A stretch of 32,225 nucleotides of DNA from Spirochaetales bacterium (GTDB taxonomy: Bacteria; Spirochaetota; Spirochaetia; Sphaerochaetales; Sphaerochaetaceae), in NCBI GenBank assembly GCA_028723145.1, contig JAQYFM010000280.1, positions 1 to 32,225 on the forward strand, given 5' to 3'. The notes under the pieces were generated by a model. It was not told where the DNA came from. It saw only the letters and a list, made by a program, of their open reading frames with translations, and searched no databases. Of the stretch, positions 10,475-29,316 are shown one piece after another. The translations under genes were made by a program, and so were the position numbers. Each line of letters opens with the position of its first letter. Position 1 is the first letter of the stretch.

Positions 10475-11368
10475 ATGACAGCAATAAGAAAAAAGAATAA
10501 CGGAATGAGACATACAAAAGCATTCTGGATGTTCGTCTTACCAAGCCTTGCTCTATTCACAGTATTCTTCTTAATACCACTTGTATTAAGCATTGCTTAT
10601 TCTTTTACTGACTATGATGGTTGGAAAACAATGAATTTTGTAGGTCTCGAAAACTTTATCGAGCTATTTCAAGATAAGAACTTCTACTCTTCTCTTGGAA
10701 GAACCTTCATTTACACACTATTTTCTCTCCCATTTAAAGTTATTATCCCATTATTAATTGCAGCACTTGTTTGTTCTGATAGAGTTGCTTTTAAGAGTTT
10801 CTCAAGAACACTTATCTACATCCCTGTTCTTCTTTCAGCACTCGTTGTAGGTATCACAATTAACTGGATGTTCTCAACTGAGTATGGTCTTGTAAACTTC
10901 ATTATCACTCAGCTTGGAGCAAAGCCTCTTGATTGGGCATTAAATCAGTACCTTGCTACATTTGTAATCAGCTTTGCTTCTAACTGGGCATCAACTGGTT
11001 TCTACATGATCATCTTCATTGGTGGTATTAAGGGTATTAGTAACGATTTATATGAAGCTGCATCAATCGATGGATGTAATACAACACAGACATTCTTTAA
11101 GATTACAGTACCAATGTTAGCACCAACAACATTCCTTGCTGTACTTCTTTCAACAGTTAACCTCTTAAAGGAATATGCTCTTGTTCAAGGTATTACTCAG
11201 GGTGGTCCTGGTGATAAAACAACATTTATTATCCAGTACATCTTTGGTCAAGGCTTTAACCAGATGAGATATGGTTATGCAAGTGCAATCTCATTCATCG
11301 TAATGATAATCTTTGCGTTAATCGCTTTCGTACAATTTAAGATGAGTAATGAAGGAGGAGAAAACTGA
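10475..11368 (+). CDS. ABC sugar transporter permease (MalF/UgpA type)
   Basis: Hydrophobic; AFWMFVLPSLALFTVFFLIPLVLSIAYSFTDYDG...YEAASIDGCNTTQTFFKITVPMLAPT (EAA motif). Confidence 0.93.
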   Translation: MTAIRKKNNGMRHTKAFWMFVLPSLALFTVFFLIPLVLSIAYSFTDYDGWKTMNFVGLENFIELFQDKNFYSSLGRTFIYTLFSLPFKVIIPLLIAALVCSDRVAFKSFSRTLIYIPVLLSALVVGITINWMFSTEYGLVNFIITQLGAKPLDWALNQYLATFVISFASNWASTGFYMIIFIGGIKGISNDLYEAASIDGCNTTQTFFKITVPMLAPTTFLAVLLSTVNLLKEYALVQGITQGGPGDKTTFIIQYIFGQGFNQMRYGYASAISFIVMIIFALIAFVQFKMSNEGGEN

Positions 11369-12195
11369 TGAAAAGCGAAAAGAAAACATCAAAGCTACTC
11401 ACTGCTCTCTCAATTTTGTTAGCTCTTGCTATGATTTTCCCAATCTTCTGGTTGATCTGTTCATCATTCAAGCAGCCTAACGAACTCTTTAAATATCCTT
11501 TAAAGATGTTCTCAAGTGATCCAACAATTAACTACTATAAGAGTGTTCTTGGTAGTGGTTTCATGAACTATGTAAAGAACAGCTTGTTCTTAGCTGTAGT
11601 TGGTACACTTATTACTCTTGTAATTAGTGCTATGTGTGGTTACGCTCTAGCTATTTACCGCTTCGAAATCAAGTATACAAACCTTGTTTTCGCAGTATTC
11701 TTGCTTGGAACCTTGATCCCTGGTGAAACACTTACTGTACCACAGGTATCGGTAATTAGTGCTCTTGGCCTTTACAACAACATTTGGGGTGTAATCCTTC
11801 CAGTTGTAACAACCACAACAGGTATCTTCATGTTCCGTCAGGCATATATGGCAATTCCACTTTCATTTGTTGAAGCTGCACGTATTGATGGATGCCCTGA
11901 ATGGAAGATCTTTACACATGTAATGATGCCTCTTGGTTCATCATCATTTGTAACACTCGCAATCTTCTCATTCATGTGGAGATGGAACGACTACATTCTT
12001 CCAATGCTCATCCTCTCTAATCAGAAGAACTTTACAATCCAGCTTGCTATTAAGAACTACATTGGTAACACTGGTGTTGACTGGTCAAGTATCTTGTCTG
12101 CTTCAGTAATGTCTGTAGTTCCAGTAATTGTAGTATTCGTTATTTTACAGAAATATATCATTGGCGGTGTTTCTGCCGGTGGTGTTAAGGGATGA
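11368..12195 (+). CDS. ABC sugar transporter permease (MalG/UgpE type)
   Basis: FPIFWLICSSFKQPNELF...FVEAARIDGCPEWKIFTHVMMPLG (EAA motif); start abuts the upstream permease stop. Confidence 0.93.
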   Translation: MKSEKKTSKLLTALSILLALAMIFPIFWLICSSFKQPNELFKYPLKMFSSDPTINYYKSVLGSGFMNYVKNSLFLAVVGTLITLVISAMCGYALAIYRFEIKYTNLVFAVFLLGTLIPGETLTVPQVSVISALGLYNNIWGVILPVVTTTTGIFMFRQAYMAIPLSFVEAARIDGCPEWKIFTHVMMPLGSSSFVTLAIFSFMWRWNDYILPMLILSNQKNFTIQLAIKNYIGNTGVDWSSILSASVMSVVPVIVVFVILQKYIIGGVSAGGVKG

Positions 12196-16347: not shown

Positions 16348-17496
16348 ATGAAGAATAAAAAATTATATTTTACATGTGCTCTCTTGATGATTTTACTTGG
16401 AACAAGTGATGCACTTAGAGGAATTTTCTCTCCGTTATTTTTAACAGAGTTTGGGCTATCAATGTCCCAAATAAGTATTATTGTATCAGCAAGCTATTTA
16501 GGTAACTTAGTTTGTTTACTATTTGGTGGGGTTATCCTAGATAAGGTTGGTAGTAAAAAAGCAATGGTAGGCTTTGTCATTTTATTAATGGCATCTGAGC
16601 TTTTGCTACTTTTAGGTGCAAAATATGCATTTTTATTATTAGGTTTCTTCTTCTCTTTAGGTCTATCAACACTTTTAAATACTACTATGATTTTCCTCTC
16701 AAGAGAGTTTAGTTTAAAAAATCCATTATTTTACTTAAATATACTCTTCTTCTTACAAGGAATTGGAACTTCATTAAGCCAACTAGTATTAACAAAATTC
16801 TCATCTTCAATAGCAGTATGGAATGGAGTTATTATCTCTCTTGCCGTTTTATTAATACCTATTGCTTTTATTCTATTTACCTCAAAGTTTTCAGATGAAA
16901 AGAAAGCTGATAGCAACCTTAATGAAATTAAAAAGGGAAGAGTAAATAAATTAGCAATAGCACTATTAGCTTTAGCTTTAGCTTTTTACTTAATTGCAGA
17001 GCATGGAGTAACTAACTACATAGTATTGTATGGAACACAGCATTTAGCCCTTGATGCAGGTAAAGTAGGTGTAATGCTATCACTATTTTCCTTTGGTATT
17101 TTAAGTGGTAGATTAATTTTAGCTACCGTTAGTGATAAAATCGGTGGGGCAAAGATGGTATTTATCTGCTTATTAAGTGCCTCAATTGGATATTCAATTG
17201 TCTTTGCTTTTAACTCACTACCTTTACTATTCTTATGTGGCTTTGCAGTTTCAATTGTATACCCAACACTAACAGACCTTTCAAAGAGCTTTGTGCCTAG
17301 CTATATGAGTGCAAGAGCTACTACAATTGTAGTCTCTCTTGCCTCAATTTTAGATATTGGATTTAACTTTGTGTTTGGCTCTGTAATAGAAGCAATTGGC
17401 TATTCAAAGTCAATGGCAATTCTTCCATTAGCACTTTTTATCTCAACAGCAATTATGTTGTCGCTTCTGTTTGTTGGACAGAGAAAGTCTTCCTGA
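16348..17496 (+). CDS. MFS family transporter
   Basis: 12-TM-like hydrophobic protein with GGVILDKVGSKKAMVGFVILL and SGRLILATVSDKIGGAKMVF MFS loop motifs. Confidence 0.85.
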   Translation: MKNKKLYFTCALLMILLGTSDALRGIFSPLFLTEFGLSMSQISIIVSASYLGNLVCLLFGGVILDKVGSKKAMVGFVILLMASELLLLLGAKYAFLLLGFFFSLGLSTLLNTTMIFLSREFSLKNPLFYLNILFFLQGIGTSLSQLVLTKFSSSIAVWNGVIISLAVLLIPIAFILFTSKFSDEKKADSNLNEIKKGRVNKLAIALLALALAFYLIAEHGVTNYIVLYGTQHLALDAGKVGVMLSLFSFGILSGRLILATVSDKIGGAKMVFICLLSASIGYSIVFAFNSLPLLFLCGFAVSIVYPTLTDLSKSFVPSYMSARATTIVVSLASILDIGFNFVFGSVIEAIGYSKSMAILPLALFISTAIMLSLLFVGQRKSS

Positions 17497-19261
17497 TAAA
17501 AGCTAAATCATCTTTTAGAGAATCAATAGGGAGTTCTTCTCGGATCAAAGGAATGTTTACAGTCAATACTCTAGCAATATGAGGATAGATTTTAGCCATT
17601 ACGCCAGTTCCAAGAGGAACTCTTTCTCCTTCAATAATATCTTTAACATGCATTGCCATAAACTTCTTTTCAAAAAGACCTATTACCTCTTCAAAGAAGC
17701 TAAATGTATTATTTGATAAATCATCCTTTAATAGATTAACTGGATCAAAAATAAGCCTTAAATACTCATCATTATTTAATCTTTCAAGAAGCCTTGAAAC
17801 CATCTCTGGAGTATTAATTGTGTGCCTAATTACTGGCTCAATTGCGATAGGTACATCATACTTTCTTGCAATAGGTAAGAGGTGTTCTAGAGCTTCAACA
17901 ACTCTTTCAAATTGTATCTCTCTATTTTCATCACTGCAGTCACTAGTTTCTGTAGCAACACACTTAGCTCCAAGCTCTTTAGCAATTCGAAGCGCTACCT
18001 CAAATTCAGCAATTTGGTTATTCCACTTACTATCATTTAAGGAAGCTATATCGATATAGCAACCAAGAACTGAGATATCTAACCCTTGGTCTTTGATATC
18101 TTCAATATCATCGTAAGTTACCTCTAAATAAGAACGCATGTAAGGAAAACTTTTGTGGATTGCAAGCTGAATAGTTTCTGCGTTGTACTCTTGTAGTTTT
18201 GCTTTTAAATTCATTGGAATTGTTGACCCAAAGTCATGGGCTCTAACACCAACCTTCATAGACCCTCCATTTTTTGTTTTTTGTAGACCTTTAATATATA
18301 AGCGAGGAGGAAATTCTGCAGGAGCAACCTCTTCCTTCTCTGGATTTATCATACCCATTATTAAATTTTTTTTCACAGTATGGCTCTTTCTATAATCACT
18401 TGGGCTAATACCACAAAACTTATGGAAAACTCTATTAAATTGGCTTGTACTCGTAAAACCACATTTTTCAATTATTTCAGAAACAGTATCATCAGAATAA
18501 GCAAGCATTTGAAGTGCATTTCGTATTCTTACAGTTTGTACATAGTTAACAAAATTAATACCTGTAATATCCTTAAAGATATGGGATAGATAAAATGGAC
18601 TAATTGCATGGGTTTCTGCAACAGATTCTAGTGATACATCCTCACTATAATGATGATTTATATAGTCCATTACATAGTAAATCTTTTGTGAATTAGATTC
18701 TATTACCTTATTTTGGTCATAACAGTTTTGATTAATATTTTTATAAATTAACCACAAAAACTCGATAAATGCTGCATAATATGCAACCTGCCAGCGATCT
18801 TGTTTTTGTTTTCCAATTTGGAAGATTTCATTTATTTTACTTACAATTTCAGTTCGAATATTAACAGGAAATCTTATTATTGGTTGCTTTAAAGAAAAGA
18901 TTCCTAGAATTTTATTTAAATCATGCTCTAATCCTGGAATGCCAGCACCAAGATTAAAGTTAATAATTATTCGTTTTTGAGGTAAATTGACCTTAGGATA
19001 TACACTTTTATGGAGTAATCCTGGTTTAAGAAAAACCATATCATAAGCAATTAATTGATTAAATTCCCCATCAACTAGATGAGCTGTTGAGTCCTCTAAT
19101 GGGATAAATATTTCATAAAAGTTATGAAAGTGTTGTATGTTCATATTTACTGGATATGAACGTATATCATAATCAAAATAAATAAATAGAGGATCTATAT
19201 CTCTATTGAACTTAATTTTGAAACCTGGTTTGAAAAATAGAGAATTACTAGCACTATCCAT
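17453..19261 (-). CDS. Fusion of AraC-family regulator (N-terminal cupin-like region plus HTH) and C-terminal sugar-phosphate isomerase/epimerase-like TIM barrel
   Basis: N-part: ...SPFYLSHIFKDITGINFVNYVQTVRIRNALQMLAYSDDTVSEIIEKCGFTSTSQFNRVFHKFCGISPSDYRKS (AraC HTH). C-part: MKVGVRAHDFG...VPIAIEPVIRHTINTPEM...LRLIFDPVNLL...FMAMHVKDI (xylose isomerase-like TIM barrel). Track start 19333 is a TTG; ATG 19261 (MDSASNSLFF) is preferred. Confidence 0.85.
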   Translation of the reverse strand: MDSASNSLFFKPGFKIKFNRDIDPLFIYFDYDIRSYPVNMNIQHFHNFYEIFIPLEDSTAHLVDGEFNQLIAYDMVFLKPGLLHKSVYPKVNLPQKRIIINFNLGAGIPGLEHDLNKILGIFSLKQPIIRFPVNIRTEIVSKINEIFQIGKQKQDRWQVAYYAAFIEFLWLIYKNINQNCYDQNKVIESNSQKIYYVMDYINHHYSEDVSLESVAETHAISPFYLSHIFKDITGINFVNYVQTVRIRNALQMLAYSDDTVSEIIEKCGFTSTSQFNRVFHKFCGISPSDYRKSHTVKKNLIMGMINPEKEEVAPAEFPPRLYIKGLQKTKNGGSMKVGVRAHDFGSTIPMNLKAKLQEYNAETIQLAIHKSFPYMRSYLEVTYDDIEDIKDQGLDISVLGCYIDIASLNDSKWNNQIAEFEVALRIAKELGAKCVATETSDCSDENREIQFERVVEALEHLLPIARKYDVPIAIEPVIRHTINTPEMVSRLLERLNNDEYLRLIFDPVNLLKDDLSNNTFSFFEEVIGLFEKKFMAMHVKDIIEGERVPLGTGVMAKIYPHIARVLTVNIPLIREELPIDSLKDDLAFIRKTFSVQQTEATT

Positions 19262-19281
19262 ACTATAGTGGTATATGGTTT

Positions 19282-19326
19282 TAGCAATAAATGCAACATT
19301 TTTCTTTATTTTTAGCAATAAAAAAG
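19282..19326 (+). promoter_or_regulatory. Pair of direct-repeat operator boxes at the regulator's own promoter
   Basis: TAGCAATAAATGCA (19282-19295, 12/14 match to TCGCAAAAAATGCA) and TAGCAATAAAAAAG (19313-19326), offset 31 bp. Confidence 0.5.
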
Positions 19327-19472
19327 ATGACAAAAATTATTTTTTATTGTTCTGATATCTGGTGATAAACGCTAAATAATCTAAACTAATTAGATTCTTT
19401 TATAAAACAAATTCTTAAAATGTGTAAATAAAATTTCGTAGGCTAAAACTAGTGTTGTTTACTATAATTTTT

Positions 19473-19562: not shown

Positions 19563-22079
19563 ATGATGAATTATCAGAAATTCTCACTTGATCATGGTTA
19601 TATAACAAGATGGCTTGTTTCTGAGGTTAGAAAGCAGGAAGTACATTCCGCTCCTGTTACAATTGACCAAGAACAAAATGTTTGGATTGGTTCTGTTGCA
19701 GCTGCTGAACATGTTAATCCAATTAGAACAGCATTTTTAGAAGATATTAAGAAAAATGGAATAGCTGATCCAGATTTTGAAGATTTCCAACCAGGTGGAA
19801 AGGTAAAGCTTCTCGGTACAACTTTAGGTTTATCTTATAGAGTACCTTTTGGTGATCCTGTTATCGGAAACTCATTTTTCTATTCAACACCACTTTGGAT
19901 AGCTCTTACTGCTGGAACAATTATTTCTTCACCTGACGATAGATGTGTAAAGGTTTTATGTTCTGTTAAAGGTGGTATGTCTCTATATGTAAATGGCAAA
20001 GAGCAGATTTCATTCCGCCCATATGAGAGAAATAATCAAGTTGATAAAGTATTTACTCTTAACCTCAAAAAAGGTGAAAACATTCTTCATGCAGTAATTG
20101 ATGAATTTGCAGAAAGAGATACTGAATGTACTATTGCATTAAGAATTGTAGAAGGTGAAGAGGGCTTAACTCAAATCCTTCCAATGGGTGATAGAGATAC
20201 TGCTTTAATTGATAAAGTTGAGGAAGCAATTAGAACTCTTAGCTTCGAGAAAAATAATTTTACTGAAGGTGATGTAAAAATCTATTGTGCTAATCCTTAT
20301 ACAGATAAGCCTTTTAAAGTTCATTTAAAGGGAGCAACTGAAGAAAATACTTTCTTACAGCTCTACCACGAATGTGATGCAGTTTTTGAAGCAGGAAAGA
20401 ATGAAGCAAATCTTGGACCTGTAGAATCATTCCCTGTTGGTTTTTTAAGATTTAATGTAACAGTTGAAGTTGAAAACTTAGTAATTCACACAATTAGAAC
20501 ATTTGAAAACTTCCCTTATTCTTTCTGTGATAAAGCTGCAAATAGTGTTAAGGAGAGAAAAAACCAAGCTTGGGAGTATCTTGCAAAGTATGGTGAGCAA
20601 AACGCAAATAGAGCAATGGCTCTCTTATTCACTAGAGGAGACAAAAAAGAAATCGATACTATCCTTCGTAGACAAATTGATTTTATCAATAAGAGAAGTG
20701 ACTGTTCAGACTTCTATCTCTCATATTTCCCATTCATGATTAGAAACTTCTCAGACTCTGGATTAATCAGTGAAGAAGTACTTCAAATGATGAAGGATTG
20801 TATTATCAACTTCCGTTACTGGCACGATGAACCAGGTGATGATGCAATGTGGTTCTATAGTGAAAACCATGCATTAATGTTCCATGTTTGTCAGTTAATT
20901 GCTGGTGAGTTATATCCTAATGCAATTTTTACAAATAGTGGTATGACAGGTATCCAGATGCAGGAAAAAGCTCTTGGAATGCTTAAGCCTTGGTTCGAGA
21001 CATTCTTCAAGTGTGGTTTCACAGAGTGGAATAGCCCTCCATATCTTCCAATTGATGCACTTGGCTTTGCATCTTTATATGCACAGACTCAAAATGAAGA
21101 GATGAAGGAGAATGCTAGAAAAGCACTTGATTACATCTTTAAGCTCTTAGCAATTACTTCATTTGATGGTGTATTTAGTACAACAAGTGGAAGAACATAT
21201 CTTAAGGAATTATTTGGTAACCACAGTAACTGTCCTTCATTTATCAACTGGATCGGTTATGGAATTGGTAACCAGAGCCATGCAGGTAAGGGTGTTGTAC
21301 CATTCTGTTTTAGTGATTACGAACCAAAAGAAGAAAACCTTGCACTTCATAAAGTAGAAGAGGGTAAAGCACTTTCTTGGAAGAGTACTCATGGCTACAA
21401 TGGTTATGCTGATATTACAGTTTATAAGACTTCTTCATACCTCCTTTCTGCTGCAAATGATTTTGAAGCAGGTAGAAGAGGCTTCCAAGAGGATGTTGTC
21501 CATGCGGTATTTAGTGCTGATGAGCATGTATTTATTAACCATCCTGGTGAATTTGCTCTCTTTGGACATGCAAGACCATCATACTGGGCTGGAAGTGGTA
21601 CTTTACCAAGAGTAAATCAATACAAAGGTTTTTGCTCAACATTTTATAAGCTTGATGAAAAACATCCTGTTGATTTCACTCATGCTTACTTCCCTGTTAA
21701 GGAGTTTAAGAAAGTATTAGCTAGAGGAAATTGGTATTTCGCTGAGTCAAAGAAGGGTGGTTTAATTGCTATCTATTCTTCAAACGGCATGACATTAACA
21801 ACTGATGGTCCTAATAGCGATAGAGAACTCTTAAGTAACGGTAGATCATGCTTATGGCTCATGAGATGTTCTTCTCTTTATAAGGAAGGTTCATTAGAAG
21901 CATTTGCTGATAAGATTTCAAAGCTTGAAGTAGCTATAAATGATGATGAATGGACCTTTAATGATCCTGAGTATGGCGTTCTTACTGGTGGATTTAAGAA
22001 AACATTATCTGTTAATGGGGTCGCTGAAGTTTATAAAGGTTATGACCCTGTAGGTGAATGCACATTCATTTGTGAATGA
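19563..22079 (+). CDS. Large cytoplasmic protein of unclear family; candidate carbohydrate-active enzyme with beta-sandwich N-part and alpha/alpha-barrel-like middle
   Basis: 838 aa, good SD (GGAGG at 19556-19560). SLDHGYITRWLVSE...VKVLCSVKGGMSLYVNGKEQISFRPYERN...WFYSENHALMFHVCQLIAGELYPN...; no signal peptide; shares promoter architecture with the sugar operon. Confidence 0.65.
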   Translation: MMNYQKFSLDHGYITRWLVSEVRKQEVHSAPVTIDQEQNVWIGSVAAAEHVNPIRTAFLEDIKKNGIADPDFEDFQPGGKVKLLGTTLGLSYRVPFGDPVIGNSFFYSTPLWIALTAGTIISSPDDRCVKVLCSVKGGMSLYVNGKEQISFRPYERNNQVDKVFTLNLKKGENILHAVIDEFAERDTECTIALRIVEGEEGLTQILPMGDRDTALIDKVEEAIRTLSFEKNNFTEGDVKIYCANPYTDKPFKVHLKGATEENTFLQLYHECDAVFEAGKNEANLGPVESFPVGFLRFNVTVEVENLVIHTIRTFENFPYSFCDKAANSVKERKNQAWEYLAKYGEQNANRAMALLFTRGDKKEIDTILRRQIDFINKRSDCSDFYLSYFPFMIRNFSDSGLISEEVLQMMKDCIINFRYWHDEPGDDAMWFYSENHALMFHVCQLIAGELYPNAIFTNSGMTGIQMQEKALGMLKPWFETFFKCGFTEWNSPPYLPIDALGFASLYAQTQNEEMKENARKALDYIFKLLAITSFDGVFSTTSGRTYLKELFGNHSNCPSFINWIGYGIGNQSHAGKGVVPFCFSDYEPKEENLALHKVEEGKALSWKSTHGYNGYADITVYKTSSYLLSAANDFEAGRRGFQEDVVHAVFSADEHVFINHPGEFALFGHARPSYWAGSGTLPRVNQYKGFCSTFYKLDEKHPVDFTHAYFPVKEFKKVLARGNWYFAESKKGGLIAIYSSNGMTLTTDGPNSDRELLSNGRSCLWLMRCSSLYKEGSLEAFADKISKLEVAINDDEWTFNDPEYGVLTGGFKKTLSVNGVAEVYKGYDPVGECTFICE

Positions 22080-22140: not shown

Positions 22141-23031
22141 TTACATTGAAAGACTCTTTTGATTTAACTCATCAATCATATTAAGTAGCATGCCTTTAAG
22201 CCTTACCTCTTGTAGCTGGCTAATTTCTCCAAGGTTATCTTTAATATATGTAATAATATATGAAAAGAAGGATGAAATGTGACCTTCATCACAAGGAAAT
22301 TGAAGAGAAGAGAAAATATTATCAATATCACGGCTCTGACAAAAACCTTTGTTAGGAAGTGTTATTATCAATTTACCTAATGAAATATTACTCTGCTCCA
22401 TCTTAGCTACAGCTGCAAGACTTACAGATGTATTTGATTCACTTAAAGGAGATCCTACACAATTAAAATATTGATAATCAAATTGTTGAATAGGAATTCT
22501 TATTCTTGATACTAGAGCATTTGGGGGTAGAGCAAGAGAACCATTTTTATCGTAGATTCTTGATATAGAAAACCACTTTGAGTGCATTCTCTTTTTTAGG
22601 TATCTTACCTCAACATTTGCATCAAGTAACATGAGTGTAGATGCAATAGGAGTTCTAAAAGAAGGTGTACAAAGACAGCCTCCGATAGTAATTCGGTTTC
22701 TAATTAACTTAGTTGCAGTACTATCTAGAGTGTTAATTAAAATCTTAGGAAGAAGTAGTGCTCCAACTGATTGAATTTTACTAAGAGATACCATACTTCC
22801 AAACTCAGCAAATCTATCATTGCGTTGGAAATGCTTTAACTCTTCTATTTTTTGAAGGGAGATAATTTCTACATTTGCAGAAGCAGAAGGATAGAAATTA
22901 GGTTGGCTCATTATATATGTACCACCCGCCCAAAGGAAAGTAATATTGTCTTTGTAGCTAATAATTGTATTTGTATATTCTGCAAGATTTTGTGGCTCAT
23001 GGACATTTGGACTTCTAAGCTCTGCGTACAT
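22141..23031 (-). CDS. FAD-binding subunit of XDH/CO dehydrogenase-type complex (divergent)
   Basis: LWAGGTYIMSQ...VEIISLQKIEEL...FAEFGSMVSLSKIQ...IRNRITIGGCLCTPSFRTPIASTLMLLDANVEVRY resembles the molybdopterin dehydrogenase FAD-binding domain. Confidence 0.8.
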   Translation of the reverse strand: MYAELRSPNVHEPQNLAEYTNTIISYKDNITFLWAGGTYIMSQPNFYPSASANVEIISLQKIEELKHFQRNDRFAEFGSMVSLSKIQSVGALLLPKILINTLDSTATKLIRNRITIGGCLCTPSFRTPIASTLMLLDANVEVRYLKKRMHSKWFSISRIYDKNGSLALPPNALVSRIRIPIQQFDYQYFNCVGSPLSESNTSVSLAAVAKMEQSNISLGKLIITLPNKGFCQSRDIDNIFSSLQFPCDEGHISSFFSYIITYIKDNLGEISQLQEVRLKGMLLNMIDELNQKSLSM

Positions 23032-23509
23032 TTCTCTTTCTCCTGATCACAAGTGCTGCATTTACTATTGCAAGAAAACCTGTTGGGTCTATGCAGTGGC
23101 ATTTTATTAATGAACTTTCTTGTAATACCTCTTGGGTATTGATCGGAAAGTCATTATTTTCATAACGTCTTAAGATATCCTCTATTAGTAGTGTTTGAGA
23201 TGCATAACAATTTTTACAAGGTGAAATACCTGTATTAAAGTATGCTCTTTCAATATCACGGTAGTCACGAGATTTTGAGAAGGAATCGAATGTAATAATA
23301 CTACTATCTTTGAGTGCGAATGCTGGAATTAAGCATGAAAGTACTGCTTTACCATTAAAGAGTACCATACACTTTCCACAATGTTTTCCATTACAGTGGG
23401 TTTTTACAGAGGAGATATCTACACTTTCCATTAATATTAATGAAAGAGGTTTAGTTGAGTTCACTGTAAGTGATAAATCTTTGCCATCAACATTGAATTC
23501 AATTCTCAT
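23015..23509 (-). CDS. [2Fe-2S] iron-sulfur subunit of XDH-type complex
   Basis: First cluster C-x4-C-x2-C-x11-C (CNGKHCGKCMVLFNGKAVLSC); second CKNC...KCHC. 17-bp overlap with the FAD subunit gene. Confidence 0.85.
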   Translation of the reverse strand: MRIEFNVDGKDLSLTVNSTKPLSLILMESVDISSVKTHCNGKHCGKCMVLFNGKAVLSCLIPAFALKDSSIITFDSFSKSRDYRDIERAYFNTGISPCKNCYASQTLLIEDILRRYENNDFPINTQEVLQESSLIKCHCIDPTGFLAIVNAALVIRRKRNVRRA

Positions 23510-23511
23510 CT

Positions 23512-25461
23512 TTATTTCCTCGTTATAGCATTTTGAATCATTACTGCAGAAATAGGTAATGTTACATTTTTAAGTCTAGGAACACACTGTAATACAGAAG
23601 AACTAAATGCAGCTTTAACACAGCCAACAATAGCAGCTGAAATACTTGCAATATTATATGTGTTATCACTTTCAAAGCTAATATTTATTTTAAAAGGTTT
23701 ATTTGGATCTATTGATAATACTGCCCCAGATGTTCTTAAAGCTTCTAAAGCTGCATTATTAATTCTAGACCTTACTTCTTTTTGGTCATATATAGTTGCA
23801 AGACGGGCGTTAATCCAAACCTCTTGGACTACAGGCAAAAATGAAATGTTATCAACTTTAGTTTCAACAATAACAGATACAGTTCCACTTGTTTCAAATT
23901 CACATGGGTTTAACTTATCATCGATATCAACATTTACCGATGTTGGAAGTTGTGCCTTTTTAGCTTTCATTGATAACTTTCTTAAGGCAGGAATTATTTG
24001 TTTTGTAAGTTGACCTAATGATCTTGATAACACATCTGGCCCACTATCTGTTGCAGCAGTATTGTAGTCATAAATTCTTACATCACTATCTCTAAACATC
24101 GTCTCATCATTAATGAGCTGCTTAATAATATCACTAATATTTCCCTTTATAGGAAGAGATGTGTATAGTTCAACTCTGTCGCCTGGACAATAAACTAGTT
24201 GTGCCTTATAGTCTGTCTTTTTTGCAAAGGTTGTTGAAAAGCCAGAAATACCAAAGCCGCCTGCAATACCTATTCCTCTTGTAAATGGAATTAGAGCCAT
24301 AGAACCTCGCTGGCTTTCATAGGAAGACCACTTTCTAGAGAAGTTGCTATCAAGAGCAATTTTCTCGGAAAGCTTAATTTGTGGTGCTAAATCTAGAGAT
24401 GGAAGATAGTCAGTGAATTTTCTTTTATTAGTAGCAAATTGTCTTTTCCAAATTATAGGTGAAATACCTAAAGAAGAAGTAATGTGGTACATCTGTAGTT
24501 CAGATGAGGCAAGTGCATCACTAAAGCCCATATTACCGTAAAATAAAGCAGGAGGATTATTACTACTAATTGTTCTTACTGTAGCCCTAAAGTAACTTAA
24601 TGGATAAGATGGGATTAACCCAGTTAGAGCTTGACGTCTAAATTCACTAGAGGTAAATAAGAAAGCTCCTTCATCTGCTAGGTATACAACCTCTTCTCCA
24701 ACAGGTTTTCCCTCTTCTGTAAGGTATGTAGTGTGTGTAATTGACACAGTAGGAGATGCTGAATATATATTTGTTCTTATTTCAACATTTGCTTTAAGTT
24801 TTAGAGCTGCGTTAGCTACAATACATGCTAATAGGGTTGGCATAATTAAGAACTCATCTTGGTCAGCTGCATAAGGAAGTGGGTGGATAATTACATTTCT
24901 GCTATCACAGCTAATAGAAGAAATAACATTGTCTTTTACCGATTGTGGCCATTGAGTAGGAACGCTTATGTGTAAATTATCATTTTCAAACCAAGCTGAT
25001 ACCTTTACTAAGGTATCATTTTGAGTTAGGCAATAATCATTTCTGTATGTTGATTCAACTTTCTTAAGTGATGAAATATCTGTTTCATATTTATCACCCC
25101 AAAGTAGAGTTTCATCATCTTCTTTTGCACTATCAAAAAGGGTTGCTTCATTACCTAATTCTTCATACTCAATTGTTGTTTCTCTAGCAGCTAGTGATAC
25201 AGCTTCATAGTCGGGCCCAAATATAGCAAGTATTGGTTGACCTTTGAAGGCAACTTCACCCTTTGCAAAGATAGGCATAGTTCCAGAAAATAAAGAAAAT
25301 AAATTCTCACCAAATAAATCGCCTGCACTGATTGTAGTAAATCGCTTATCTAGTGAAGGAAGCTCTATCTTGCTAATTCTAGCTCTATCAACAGAGCTTA
25401 CAATTAGAGTCCCAAAAAAAATACTAACGATGTTTTGACTGTTCTTAACTCGTTCTGCCAT
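23512..25461 (-). CDS. XDH/aldehyde oxidase large (molybdopterin-binding-like) subunit, highly divergent
   Basis: Order and sequence match the family: GEVAFKGQPILAIFGPDYEAVSLAARETTIEYEEL; TAATDSGPDVLSRSLGQ; LSMKAKKAQ. Several cofactor motifs are degenerate. Track start 25479 is TTG; ATG 25461 (MAERVKNSQN) preferred. Confidence 0.75.
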   Translation of the reverse strand: MAERVKNSQNIVSIFFGTLIVSSVDRARISKIELPSLDKRFTTISAGDLFGENLFSLFSGTMPIFAKGEVAFKGQPILAIFGPDYEAVSLAARETTIEYEELGNEATLFDSAKEDDETLLWGDKYETDISSLKKVESTYRNDYCLTQNDTLVKVSAWFENDNLHISVPTQWPQSVKDNVISSISCDSRNVIIHPLPYAADQDEFLIMPTLLACIVANAALKLKANVEIRTNIYSASPTVSITHTTYLTEEGKPVGEEVVYLADEGAFLFTSSEFRRQALTGLIPSYPLSYFRATVRTISSNNPPALFYGNMGFSDALASSELQMYHITSSLGISPIIWKRQFATNKRKFTDYLPSLDLAPQIKLSEKIALDSNFSRKWSSYESQRGSMALIPFTRGIGIAGGFGISGFSTTFAKKTDYKAQLVYCPGDRVELYTSLPIKGNISDIIKQLINDETMFRDSDVRIYDYNTAATDSGPDVLSRSLGQLTKQIIPALRKLSMKAKKAQLPTSVNVDIDDKLNPCEFETSGTVSVIVETKVDNISFLPVVQEVWINARLATIYDQKEVRSRINNAALEALRTSGAVLSIDPNKPFKINISFESDNTYNIASISAAIVGCVKAAFSSSVLQCVPRLKNVTLPISAVMIQNAITRK

Positions 25462-25553: not shown

Positions 25554-27650
25554 ATGGATATTAAAGCAAGAATGCAAGAGCTGACAAATGAGCTATTAAG
25601 ATATCAAGAAGCTTATTATGTCGAAGGTAAAAGTTTAGTTAGCGATCTTGAATATGATGGTTTATTTGATGAGCTATCAAAGCTTGAAAAAGAGCATCCT
25701 GAATATGCCTCTTCTTCAAGCCCAACTCAAAGAGTTGGATCAGATTTAACCTCTGATTTCCCTGAGGTTAAACATACAATCCCGGTCCTTTCTTTAGATA
25801 AAGCTTACTCAGTTGAAGAAGTATTATCATTTATGGGTAAGTGTGAAGAAAAGGGTAAGGAAAAGCTATCTTTTGTCGAAGAAGAAAAGATTGATGGTAT
25901 TTCAATGGTTCTATATTATGAGGATGGTATTTTAGTTAGAGGCGTTACTAGAGGAAATGGTTCTGTAGGCAACGATGTAACTGCAAATATTAAGACAATT
26001 AATCAAATACCATTAAGATTAAAAGAAAAAGTTAATTTAGTTGTTCGAGGCGAGGTTTATCTTGCTAAAGCAGATTTTCTAAAGTTTAAGGATCTTGATG
26101 GTGCTGCTAATCCAAGAAATTTAGCAGCTGGAAGTGTAAGAAGACAAAAGAGTAGTGAAACAGCGCAAATACCTCTTCAAATATTCATCTATGAAGGCTT
26201 TTGGGAGGATGAAAGTAAAACCCCTCAAGATCATATTTCTATTCTAGCTAAGTTAAAGGAATTAGGATTTAGAATTAATCCTCATCTTGCACTTTTTTCT
26301 TCATCCAAAGAGAAAAGTGAGAATATGCTTAAGACAGCAGGATTAGAAGGAAAAGCATATTCTTTTGATTCTTTAGGCTCCTATATAAAAGATGTAACAC
26401 AAAAACGCCAAGACCTTGAATATGAAATCGATGGAATGGTAACAAAAATAAATGAGCTTGATGTTAGAAAGGAATTAGGATACACCCAGCACCATCCAAG
26501 GTGGGCAATTGCATATAAATTTGAATCTCCTCAAGCTGAAACAATAATTAATGGTATCACAATGCAAGTAGGTAGAACTGGAAGAATTACACCTGTTGCA
26601 GAGCTTAATCCTGTTGCTTTGGGTGGTTCAACTGTAAAAAGAGCTACACTACATAACCAAGAATATATTGATGAATTAGAGATAGCTATAGGTGATAAAG
26701 TTTCCGTTGTTAAAAGAGGTGATGTAATTCCAGCCGTTGAAGAAGTACTTGAGAAAAATGAGGAAGGTAACACTACCTTCAAAATTCCTCATATTTGTCC
26801 ATGCTGTAATACTCCTTTAGAAGAAAAGGGTGCTCATCTATTTTGCCCAAACCCAGAGTGTCCTGACCAGGTTCTAGGTCGAATAGCGTTCTTTGCATCT
26901 CGTGAATGTATGGATATGGAATCTTTTGGACCTAAGTCTGTTGAAGTATTAATAAAGCATGGATTTATAAAAGATATCCCTGATTTATATACCTTTAACT
27001 ATGACAAAATATTAGATGAAAATATTAAAGGTTTAGGAGAAAAGACTGTTAACCAATTTAAGGTTGCTGTAAAAGAAAGTAAAAAGAAACCTTTTAGAGT
27101 TGTATTAACTTCTTTAGGGCTCCCTGAGGTTGGTAAGAAGGGTGCTGAAATATTAATTAAAGGTGGTTTTGACTCAATTGATAAGCTAATTCAAGCTAGT
27201 TTAAATAAGGATATTGAGGCATTCACTAAAATTCCACAAATTGGAGAACAGACAGCTACATTAATCATTAATGCATTAAATGACAAAGTTTTACTTGAGC
27301 GTATTGAAAAATTAAAGTCAGCTGGGCTACAATTCGAGGAAAATCATGAAGAGAATTCACTTGAACAGATTTTTGCTGGTCAAGTTTGGTGTGTAACAGG
27401 TTCTTTTGAACACTACAATCCAAGATCTTTAGCGCTTGCTGAGATAGAGAAAAGAGGTGGTAGAACTACTTCTTCTGTAACTAGCAAAACTACTCATCTG
27501 CTTCTTGGTAAAGGAGGGGGCAGCAAGAGAGCTACCGCTGAAAGTCTTGGAGTAAAATTAGTGGACGAAGGTGAGTTCTTAAAAATGATTGGCGAAGGCG
27601 AGGTGAAAACAGAAAGTGCACCAGAAGATGGTCAACTTTCACTCTTTTAG
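25554..27650 (+). CDS. ligA: NAD-dependent DNA ligase LigA
   Basis: 698 aa; LVSDLEYDGLFDEL, EEKIDGISMVLYYEDG (KxDG), zinc finger CPCCNTPLEEKGAHLFCPNPEC, C-terminal BRCT. Confidence 0.98.
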   Translation: MDIKARMQELTNELLRYQEAYYVEGKSLVSDLEYDGLFDELSKLEKEHPEYASSSSPTQRVGSDLTSDFPEVKHTIPVLSLDKAYSVEEVLSFMGKCEEKGKEKLSFVEEEKIDGISMVLYYEDGILVRGVTRGNGSVGNDVTANIKTINQIPLRLKEKVNLVVRGEVYLAKADFLKFKDLDGAANPRNLAAGSVRRQKSSETAQIPLQIFIYEGFWEDESKTPQDHISILAKLKELGFRINPHLALFSSSKEKSENMLKTAGLEGKAYSFDSLGSYIKDVTQKRQDLEYEIDGMVTKINELDVRKELGYTQHHPRWAIAYKFESPQAETIINGITMQVGRTGRITPVAELNPVALGGSTVKRATLHNQEYIDELEIAIGDKVSVVKRGDVIPAVEEVLEKNEEGNTTFKIPHICPCCNTPLEEKGAHLFCPNPECPDQVLGRIAFFASRECMDMESFGPKSVEVLIKHGFIKDIPDLYTFNYDKILDENIKGLGEKTVNQFKVAVKESKKKPFRVVLTSLGLPEVGKKGAEILIKGGFDSIDKLIQASLNKDIEAFTKIPQIGEQTATLIINALNDKVLLERIEKLKSAGLQFEENHEENSLEQIFAGQVWCVTGSFEHYNPRSLALAEIEKRGGRTTSSVTSKTTHLLLGKGGGSKRATAESLGVKLVDEGEFLKMIGEGEVKTESAPEDGQLSLF

Positions 27651-27667: not shown

Positions 27668-28966
27668 ATGAACGAATTAGCAAAACAATTAAATGACACA
27701 TTGTCATCATGCGTAGTTTCAGCATTTTTGTCTGAAAAGGGAAAAAAGCTATATTTCCCAAAGGGAATTGTAGCACAGTCACAGGAAGCTGGTGAAAAAG
27801 CAAAGCAATATAATGCGACTGTTGGCCTTGCTAAGAGCAATGGAATTCCAATGCACCTTTCGGATATTCAAAATTTCTTTAAAGAAAATACCTTAAAGCC
27901 AGCTGAAATTTTTAGTTATGCACCAGGTGGTGGTAATAAAGAGTTAAGAGCGATTTGGAAACAGGAGATGATTAAAAAGAATCCTTCTCTTACTGGAAAA
28001 CTTTTCTCAGATCCACTTGTTACTTCAGGATTAACTCATACTATTAGCATGGTTGCTACAATGTTCTTTGATGAAGGTGATGAACTCATCCTTCCAGATC
28101 TTTATTGGGATAACTATGAATTAATCTTTAAAGATTGTACTGGCTGTACAATAAAAGAGTTTAAATTCTTCAAAGATGGGGGATTAAACATTGAAGGACT
28201 AAAGAGTGCACTCCTTTCTTCAAAGGGGAATTGTGCTCGTGTTTTATTAAACTTCCCAAATAACCCAACAGGATATACACCTTCTGAAAAAGAGATGGAA
28301 AGTCTTGCAAATACATTTAAAGAGGTTGCAGAAACAGGAAAAAAGATTCTTGTAATTTCTGATGATGCATATTTTGGACTTTTCTTTGAGCCTGATACAG
28401 CTAAGGAATCATTATTTGCTAAATTAGTTGATTTACATGAAAATATTTTTGCAATTAAAGGTGATGCAGCTACTAAAGAAGAAATGGTTTGGGGCTTCAG
28501 AGTTGGCTTTATCACATATGGTGGTAAGAGCTTAAAGGCAGAACACTTAGATGCTCTTAGTAAGAAAACTCTTGGTGCAATTAGATCTTCTGTATCAAAC
28601 TGTGATATGCCAGGACAATCAATGCTCTTAAAAGCAATAAAAGAAGGTGCTAACTACGACTTAGATAAGCAAAAAACCTTTACTGTCATGTCTGAGCGTT
28701 ATAAAGTTATTAAAGAGGTATTGGAAAACTATAAGTCTTCAACATTACTGAGACCATATCCTTTTAACTCTGGATATTTTATGGCTTTCGATACCCTCGG
28801 TCATAGTGCAGAAGCACTTAGGGTGTACTTATTAGATAAATATCAAGTAGGTACAATTAATATTCAGGATAGGACATTAAGACTTGCATATTGTTCAGTT
28901 GAAAAGGAACAACTTGCTGACTTAGTATCCATCGTCTATAAGGCAGCAGAGGAGATATGGAACTAA
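27668..28966 (+). CDS. Pyridoxal-phosphate aminotransferase class I/II
   Basis: YAPGGGNKELRAIWKQEM, LLNFPNNPTGYTPSEKEME, ISDDAYFGLFFE, FAIKGDAATKEEMVWGFRVGF. GGAGG at 27656-27660 supports ATG 27668. Confidence 0.9.
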   Translation: MNELAKQLNDTLSSCVVSAFLSEKGKKLYFPKGIVAQSQEAGEKAKQYNATVGLAKSNGIPMHLSDIQNFFKENTLKPAEIFSYAPGGGNKELRAIWKQEMIKKNPSLTGKLFSDPLVTSGLTHTISMVATMFFDEGDELILPDLYWDNYELIFKDCTGCTIKEFKFFKDGGLNIEGLKSALLSSKGNCARVLLNFPNNPTGYTPSEKEMESLANTFKEVAETGKKILVISDDAYFGLFFEPDTAKESLFAKLVDLHENIFAIKGDAATKEEMVWGFRVGFITYGGKSLKAEHLDALSKKTLGAIRSSVSNCDMPGQSMLLKAIKEGANYDLDKQKTFTVMSERYKVIKEVLENYKSSTLLRPYPFNSGYFMAFDTLGHSAEALRVYLLDKYQVGTINIQDRTLRLAYCSVEKEQLADLVSIVYKAAEEIWN

Positions 28967-29316
28967 AAACAAAAATCTATTTACTAAATGATGATGGTGA
29001 TAAGTTCATGGGAATTGGAGTTCTATGGCTTTTAAATGAAGTTATGAAAACACAGTCCCTTCATAAAGCGGCAAAGAACTTAGATATCTCTTATACAAAG
29101 GCTTTTAATATGGTAAAGCACCTAGAAAGTGCCCTTGGTAAGGAAGTCCTTTCAAGAAAGAAAGGTGGTGCTAACCGTGAAGGAGCTACTATCACAGAAT
29201 TTGGTAAAGAGTTTTTAAGCCTCTATGACGAGTTTCAAAAACAAGCAAAAGAGTGCATAAATGGTCCATATCAAAACTTTAAAGAAAAATTAAGTCTTTT
29301 AATGGAGGAAAATTAA
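28957..29316 (+). CDS. ModE-type winged-helix DNA-binding protein lacking Mop domains
   Basis: 119 aa: DGDKFMGIGVLWLLNEVMKTQSLHKAAKNLDISYTKAFNMVKHLESALGKEVLSRKKGGANREGATITEFGKEFLSLY matches the ModE N-terminal HTH pattern only. Confidence 0.82.
   Translation: MELKTKIYLLNDDGDKFMGIGVLWLLNEVMKTQSLHKAAKNLDISYTKAFNMVKHLESALGKEVLSRKKGGANREGATITEFGKEFLSLYDEFQKQAKECINGPYQNFKEKLSLLMEEN

Follow-up and report, generated by a model that had tools for sequence, protein, structure and literature searches.

A xanthine dehydrogenase-like complex of Spirochaetia that lacks the molybdenum-cofactor motifs

Hydroxylases of the xanthine oxidase (XO) family, such as xanthine dehydrogenase (XDH), nicotinate dehydrogenase, quinoline 2-oxidoreductase and the CO dehydrogenase CoxLMS, have a common large-subunit fold and consist of three subunits, which carry two [2Fe-2S] clusters and a FAD_binding_5 domain in addition to the molybdenum cofactor (MoCo). 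Orphan molybdoproteins of this family have been reported from genomes without MoCo biosynthesis, and a "Mo-independent form" has been raised as a possibility (PMC6147048). No sequence feature was found that separates these orphans, spirochaetes are not named in the main text of that survey, and the question of whether XO-family proteins in MoCo-less genomes are molybdenum-independent was left open. In Treponema pallidum, TPASS_0079 and TPASS_0081 have been annotated as xanthine dehydrogenase, molybdoprotein binding (PMC4403809). The literature searched, which included few subscription papers, yielded no study of the complex described here.

The DNA analysed, referred to as the window, is a stretch of 32,225 nucleotides from a Spirochaetales bacterium of the family Sphaerochaetaceae. 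Its relevant features are the following.

23512..25461, minus strand: large subunit of the XDH-like complex, an ORF of 649 aa with an ATG start, assigned by Pfam, AlphaFold2 and Foldseek
24847..24876, minus strand: PYAADQDEFL, codons 196-205, replacing GGGFGGKE in the alignment
24523..24549, minus strand: codons 305-313, replacing AFRGFG in the alignment, with Gly309 at the Arg912 position
24136..24159, minus strand: codons 435-442, replacing MGQG in the alignment, with Gly440 at the Gln1040 position
23626..23658, minus strand: codons 602-612, replacing the catalytic segment AKGxGE in the alignment, with Ala609 at the Glu1261 position
23015..23509, minus strand: small subunit for two [2Fe-2S] clusters, 164 aa, matched by NCBIfam XdhC models at 55-60 bits
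22141..23031, minus strand: FAD-binding subunit, 296 aa, with a Pfam FAD_binding_5 match of 69.9 bits and the AGGT and TIGG motifs
25554..27650, plus strand: ligA, NAD-dependent DNA ligase, the divergent neighbour

Positions of the MoCo site (Gly799, Arg912, Gln1040, Glu1261 and others) follow the bovine XDH numbering of the established XDH structures.

The large-subunit frame is intact over its 649 codons, in agreement with the roughly 650 given in an earlier note on this DNA. Pfam matches are weak (MoCoBD_1 at 34 bits, plus Ald_Xan_dh_C). Profile-profile alignment with intact XDH subunits reaches an hhalign probability of 100% (E=9e-47), and the AlphaFold2 model (pLDDT 89) is matched by Foldseek to XDH/AO with a TM of 0.78. 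Xanthine dehydrogenases, aldehyde oxidases and their relatives make up the whole list of the 50 best PDB matches. By homology and predicted fold, ORF 23512-25461 is an XDH large subunit, and the XDH-like fold that the earlier note had supposed appears to be retained.

That note had also read the motifs of the molybdenum site as lost. The window protein was compared by L-INS-i with intact paralogues from its own genome and by profile-profile alignment, and both bear the reading out. The loop GGGFGGK, for which PLPYAADQDEF had been proposed as the replacement, reads PYAADQDEF, so that Asp202 occupies the Gly799 position; FRGFG reads FYGNMG, GQG reads SLPIKGN, and the place of the catalytic glutamate in AKGxGE falls within YNIASISAA, at Ala609. 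The window protein thus lacks the GGGFGG loop of a molybdenum hydroxylase, together with the arginine of FRGFG, the glutamine of GQG and the catalytic glutamate (bovine Glu1261), while the DSGP segment is kept, as had been noted. Chance or misalignment as the source of these differences was rejected after the protein had been aligned with the intact paralogues and with PDB sequences, using L-INS-i, hhalign and HMMs. Of the checks that the earlier note had suggested, structure prediction matched the fold to XDH, and profile alignment restored neither the MoCo contacts nor the catalytic glutamate.

The loss extends well beyond this ORF. Cofactor-site residues were counted in 79 diverse orthologues, 20 of them from outside Sphaerochaetaceae. 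The GGGFGG loop is absent from all 79, the Gly799 position is occupied by Asp in 68, and Arg912 is kept in two; the residues common in either group of these aligned sequences include neither Gln1040 nor Gln1194. Because identical losses recur across the 79 orthologues, they lie far beyond chance. Glutamate at the Glu1261 position is found in 13/79, and 11 of these 13 are from outside Sphaerochaetaceae. A catalytic-type glutamate in 11 of the 20 outside members implies that the loss was stepwise; nearly all Sphaerochaetaceae lack it, as does locus L104 of the Treponema group. Gln767 (TQ) and Ser1080 (in the DSGP segment) are mostly retained. Five other residues, Trp171, Asp202, Glu273, Arg376 and Pro506, are near-invariant in the orthologues, unlike in the intact paralogues. 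In a tree made by a quick method, with some long branches, a supported branch has the Sphaerochaetaceae sequences on one side, and another has the intact paralogues on one side. A very divergent trio in genus g22 (L073, 3551-7028), with an end branch of 2.66, is likewise without the MoCo motifs.

The two partner genes lie on the same strand as the large-subunit gene, nearly touching or overlapping, and the start of the FAD-subunit gene overlaps the end of the small-subunit gene by 17 bases. Both partners have the features of their XO-family counterparts, two [2Fe-2S] clusters and FAD_binding_5. The small subunit matches the FeS subunit of nicotinate dehydrogenase in the PDB (5.7e-12) and has all eight cysteines. 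The glutamine before CxxC, which contacts MoCo in XDH, is a proline in the window protein and in 70 of 83 orthologues. The FAD motifs are kept in nearly all orthologues.

Sequence, structure prediction and genome context together give good support to the view that the trio is a molybdenum-free descendant of the XO family, conserved over much of Spirochaetia. As to what it does, we consider it fairly probable that the large subunit and its partners no longer bind MoCo and pass electrons via FAD and the [2Fe-2S] clusters to a remodelled pocket. Electron transfer is the most likely activity because the FAD and two-cluster Fe-S subunits are kept. Electrons would enter from a soluble donor such as NAD(P)H, run through FAD and the two [2Fe-2S] clusters, and end at a substrate or partner in the vacated, remodelled pocket of the large subunit, for which Trp171, Asp202, Glu273 and Arg376 are candidate residues. 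We infer in this that the proteins assemble into a redox-active complex without bound MoCo, and where electrons enter and leave it.

The main rival to this electron-transfer reading is a pseudoenzyme scaffold, in which no electrons would flow, the XDH architecture would persist as a complex with a structural or regulatory role, and the small-subunit cofactor motifs would be structural or remnants. It is the less likely of the two, though a serious candidate. All eight Fe-S cysteines are retained in 80 of 83 small subunits, which is hard to account for if the clusters are absent, and the kept FAD motifs also speak against a scaffold. The remaining three (L057, L107 and L104) point the other way, as does the loss of the catalytic glutamate in nearly all Sphaerochaetaceae. 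Their Fe-S ligands were lost in separate lineages with the large-subunit frame still open: in L057 (6668-7408, on a 2,227,296-base chromosome) and L107, ligand cysteines are gone while the large subunit is intact, and the L104 small subunit (11240-11734) has lost its first four cysteines, that is, half of them. Such losses beside a kept large subunit argue against a universal redox role, and in these lineages the trio is probably a non-redox pseudo-complex. The earlier note had left the choice between a MoCo-independent relative and a scaffold-type pseudoenzyme. Its first half is supported by the clade-wide loss, by purifying selection and by the lack of MoaA in most hosts; on the second the evidence is divided between the retained Fe-S and FAD motifs and the ligand loss in three lineages.

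Continued binding of MoCo or a related pyranopterin, by way of backbone contacts in a relaxed site, is improbable. The retained DSGP segment and TQ motif, the catalytic-type glutamate of some members and the intact MoCo-type paralogues of the window genome would fit such binding. Against it, the complex has lost the glycine loop and the contacts made by Arg912, Gln1040, Gln1194 and the Gln112 equivalent, aspartate mostly stands at the Gly799 position, and most hosts lack MoaA, as most of those checked lack MoaC or MoeA. A residual binding of pterin or substrate is nevertheless possible in some members, judging from their sequences, because Gln767 and Ser1080 are mostly kept and 11 of the 20 outside members have the glutamate.

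The supply of cofactor was assessed from MoCo biosynthesis genes. Among the 141 Sphaerochaetaceae genomes, MoaA was found in 12 and MoeA_N in two. The absence of MoeA_N alone was not trusted, and a short MoeA-like protein was searched for separately, because Sphaerochaetaceae with MoaA carry such a protein without the MoeA_N domain; it was found in 26/141. Outside the family, 138 sampled genomes of the class have MoCoBD_1, and their best scores form two groups, with none between 1e-66 and 1e-54. Only the degenerate form is present in 103 of these 138, and 91 of the 103 have no MoaA match, however weak. MoaC and MoeA are also missing in most of the MoaA-less hosts checked, and neither these two nor MoaA were found in the L104 genome. 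Three hosts (G354, G489 and G485, with loci L122, L117 and L116) do have MoaC, MoeA and MoaA, the last weak in one of them, and their orthologues have equally lost the MoCo loop, the arginine and the glutamine. Equal losses in hosts with MoCo genes indicate that the loss is a property of the protein family rather than of the host.

The window genome (86% complete) yielded no MoaA, MoaC, MoeA or short MoeA-like protein. Like most Sphaerochaetaceae, it also carries XDH paralogues with intact motifs, so that the absence of MoCo cannot be read from this genome alone. Two of these paralogues, at loci L074 (contig C245) and L075 (contig C51), score 1287 bits with TIGR03311 and 1185 bits with TIGR03313. 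XDH-family enzymes whose scores resemble those of intact MoCo proteins occur in nearly all Sphaerochaetaceae, complete single-contig genomes included. Most Sphaerochaetaceae with intact Se-XDH-type enzymes lack MoaA, MoeA and the short MoeA-like protein alike, and the majority of those examined for MoaC lack it too; where these enzymes would get MoCo is a puzzle.

Orthologue sampling covered Spirochaetota. All 141 Sphaerochaetaceae genomes were matched, 134 of them by a strong orthologue (<1e-30). A scan of other public genome contigs with the single protein as query turned up two matches, one clear and the other weak; a relative that it named as Bullifex porci is 78% identical. A profile built from 46 members matched across the class Spirochaetia, in most of the other families sampled, and had no match in Borreliaceae and some other genomes. 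The order large-FeS-FAD is identical in the Sphaerochaetaceae loci and in 20 loci fetched from other families. Locus L104 lies on a single chromosome of 1,139,633 bases, and its host is apparently T. pallidum, which indicates that one of the more reduced genomes among bacteria has kept a complex of unassigned role.

For the large subunit, dN/dS is 0.04-0.09 (Nei-Gojobori, pairs with estimable dS), and in the sole pair compared with LigA it is 0.083 against 0.060 for LigA. The earlier note had called for this measurement across related genomes, and the values point to strong purifying selection; together with the open frames they agree with its statement that the gene is not a simple pseudogene. 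Neither relaxed selection nor a broken frame was seen. An eroding pseudogene, which graded motif loss and the Fe-S ligand loss of some lineages might suggest, is rejected as very improbable in view of this LigA-like dN/dS, the lack of internal stops in the listed orthologues and the retention of the trio in a reduced genome of 1.14 Mb.

The neighbourhood of the trio differs between groups. Among 32 trio loci of Sphaerochaetaceae, 26 have ligA within the region that was fetched, mostly divergent as in the window. Outside this family, the genes upstream of the trio usually encode a LoaP-type antiterminator, a CapD/PseB-like UDP-GlcNAc 4,6-dehydratase and a PseC-like aminotransferase, whose gene often overlaps that of the large subunit, and dnaE, recognised from its N-terminal sequence, often lies 3' of the trio. 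The trio is perhaps tied to envelope amino-sugar genes, which we regard as a lead, not a result. In Sphaerochaetaceae the amino-sugar genes are not adjacent to the trio, the DegT amino-sugar gene has no high-scoring homologue in the genomes checked (best full-frame match E ~1e-31), and none was found in the window genome. A fixed tie between trio and DegT is weakened by these missing close homologues. More tentatively still, Spirochaetia may have turned a molybdenum hydroxylase into a molybdenum-free flavin/Fe-S enzyme with a new site at Trp171, Asp202, Glu273 and Arg376, which in many families stands behind the genes for LoaP, the UDP-GlcNAc 4,6-dehydratase and the amino-sugar aminotransferase, and perhaps acts in envelope glycan synthesis; we hold this fuller picture to be possible, with the odds against it.

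Three other genes of the window were recorded. Downstream of ligA and an aminotransferase gene, the product of 28957-29316 (119 aa) resembles the DNA-binding domain of ModE (TIGR00637 at 53.7 bits, below the cut-off), and a similar gene occurs in 15 Sphaerochaetaceae loci. The 626-aa protein of 17453-19333 joins an AraC-type HTH to a xylose-isomerase-like TIM barrel. Convergent with the trio, 19563-22079 is an 838-aa ORF that matches nothing in NCBIfam and, above the cut-off, nothing in Pfam.

Set beside the known XO-family hydroxylases, the trio keeps the architecture, and its gene order is also that of a cluster of intact paralogues in the window genome. It differs in that the MoCo loop, the arginine, the glutamine contacts and usually the catalytic glutamate are missing, in the new Trp, Asp, Glu and Arg that are specific to the clade in its large subunit, and in the length of that subunit, about 650 aa against 745-763 aa in the matched XDH/xanthine oxidase large chains. 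The published T. pallidum annotation (PMC4403809) presumes a molybdoprotein, whereas L104 has neither the motifs nor the MoCo genes. Its trio comes after CapD-like and DegT genes, and TPASS_0079 and TPASS_0081 are apparent orthologues, which indicates that in Treponema, and apparently in T. pallidum too, the annotation "xanthine dehydrogenase, molybdoprotein" names the wrong cofactor. The orphan molybdoproteins of the earlier survey (PMC6147048) likewise belong to the XO family and come from genomes without the MoCo pathway, but the spirochaete group shows explicit distinguishing features. One orphan group is now set apart by the residues it has lost, by new near-invariant ones and by its genome context, and this clear separation makes the question of its molybdenum independence directly testable.
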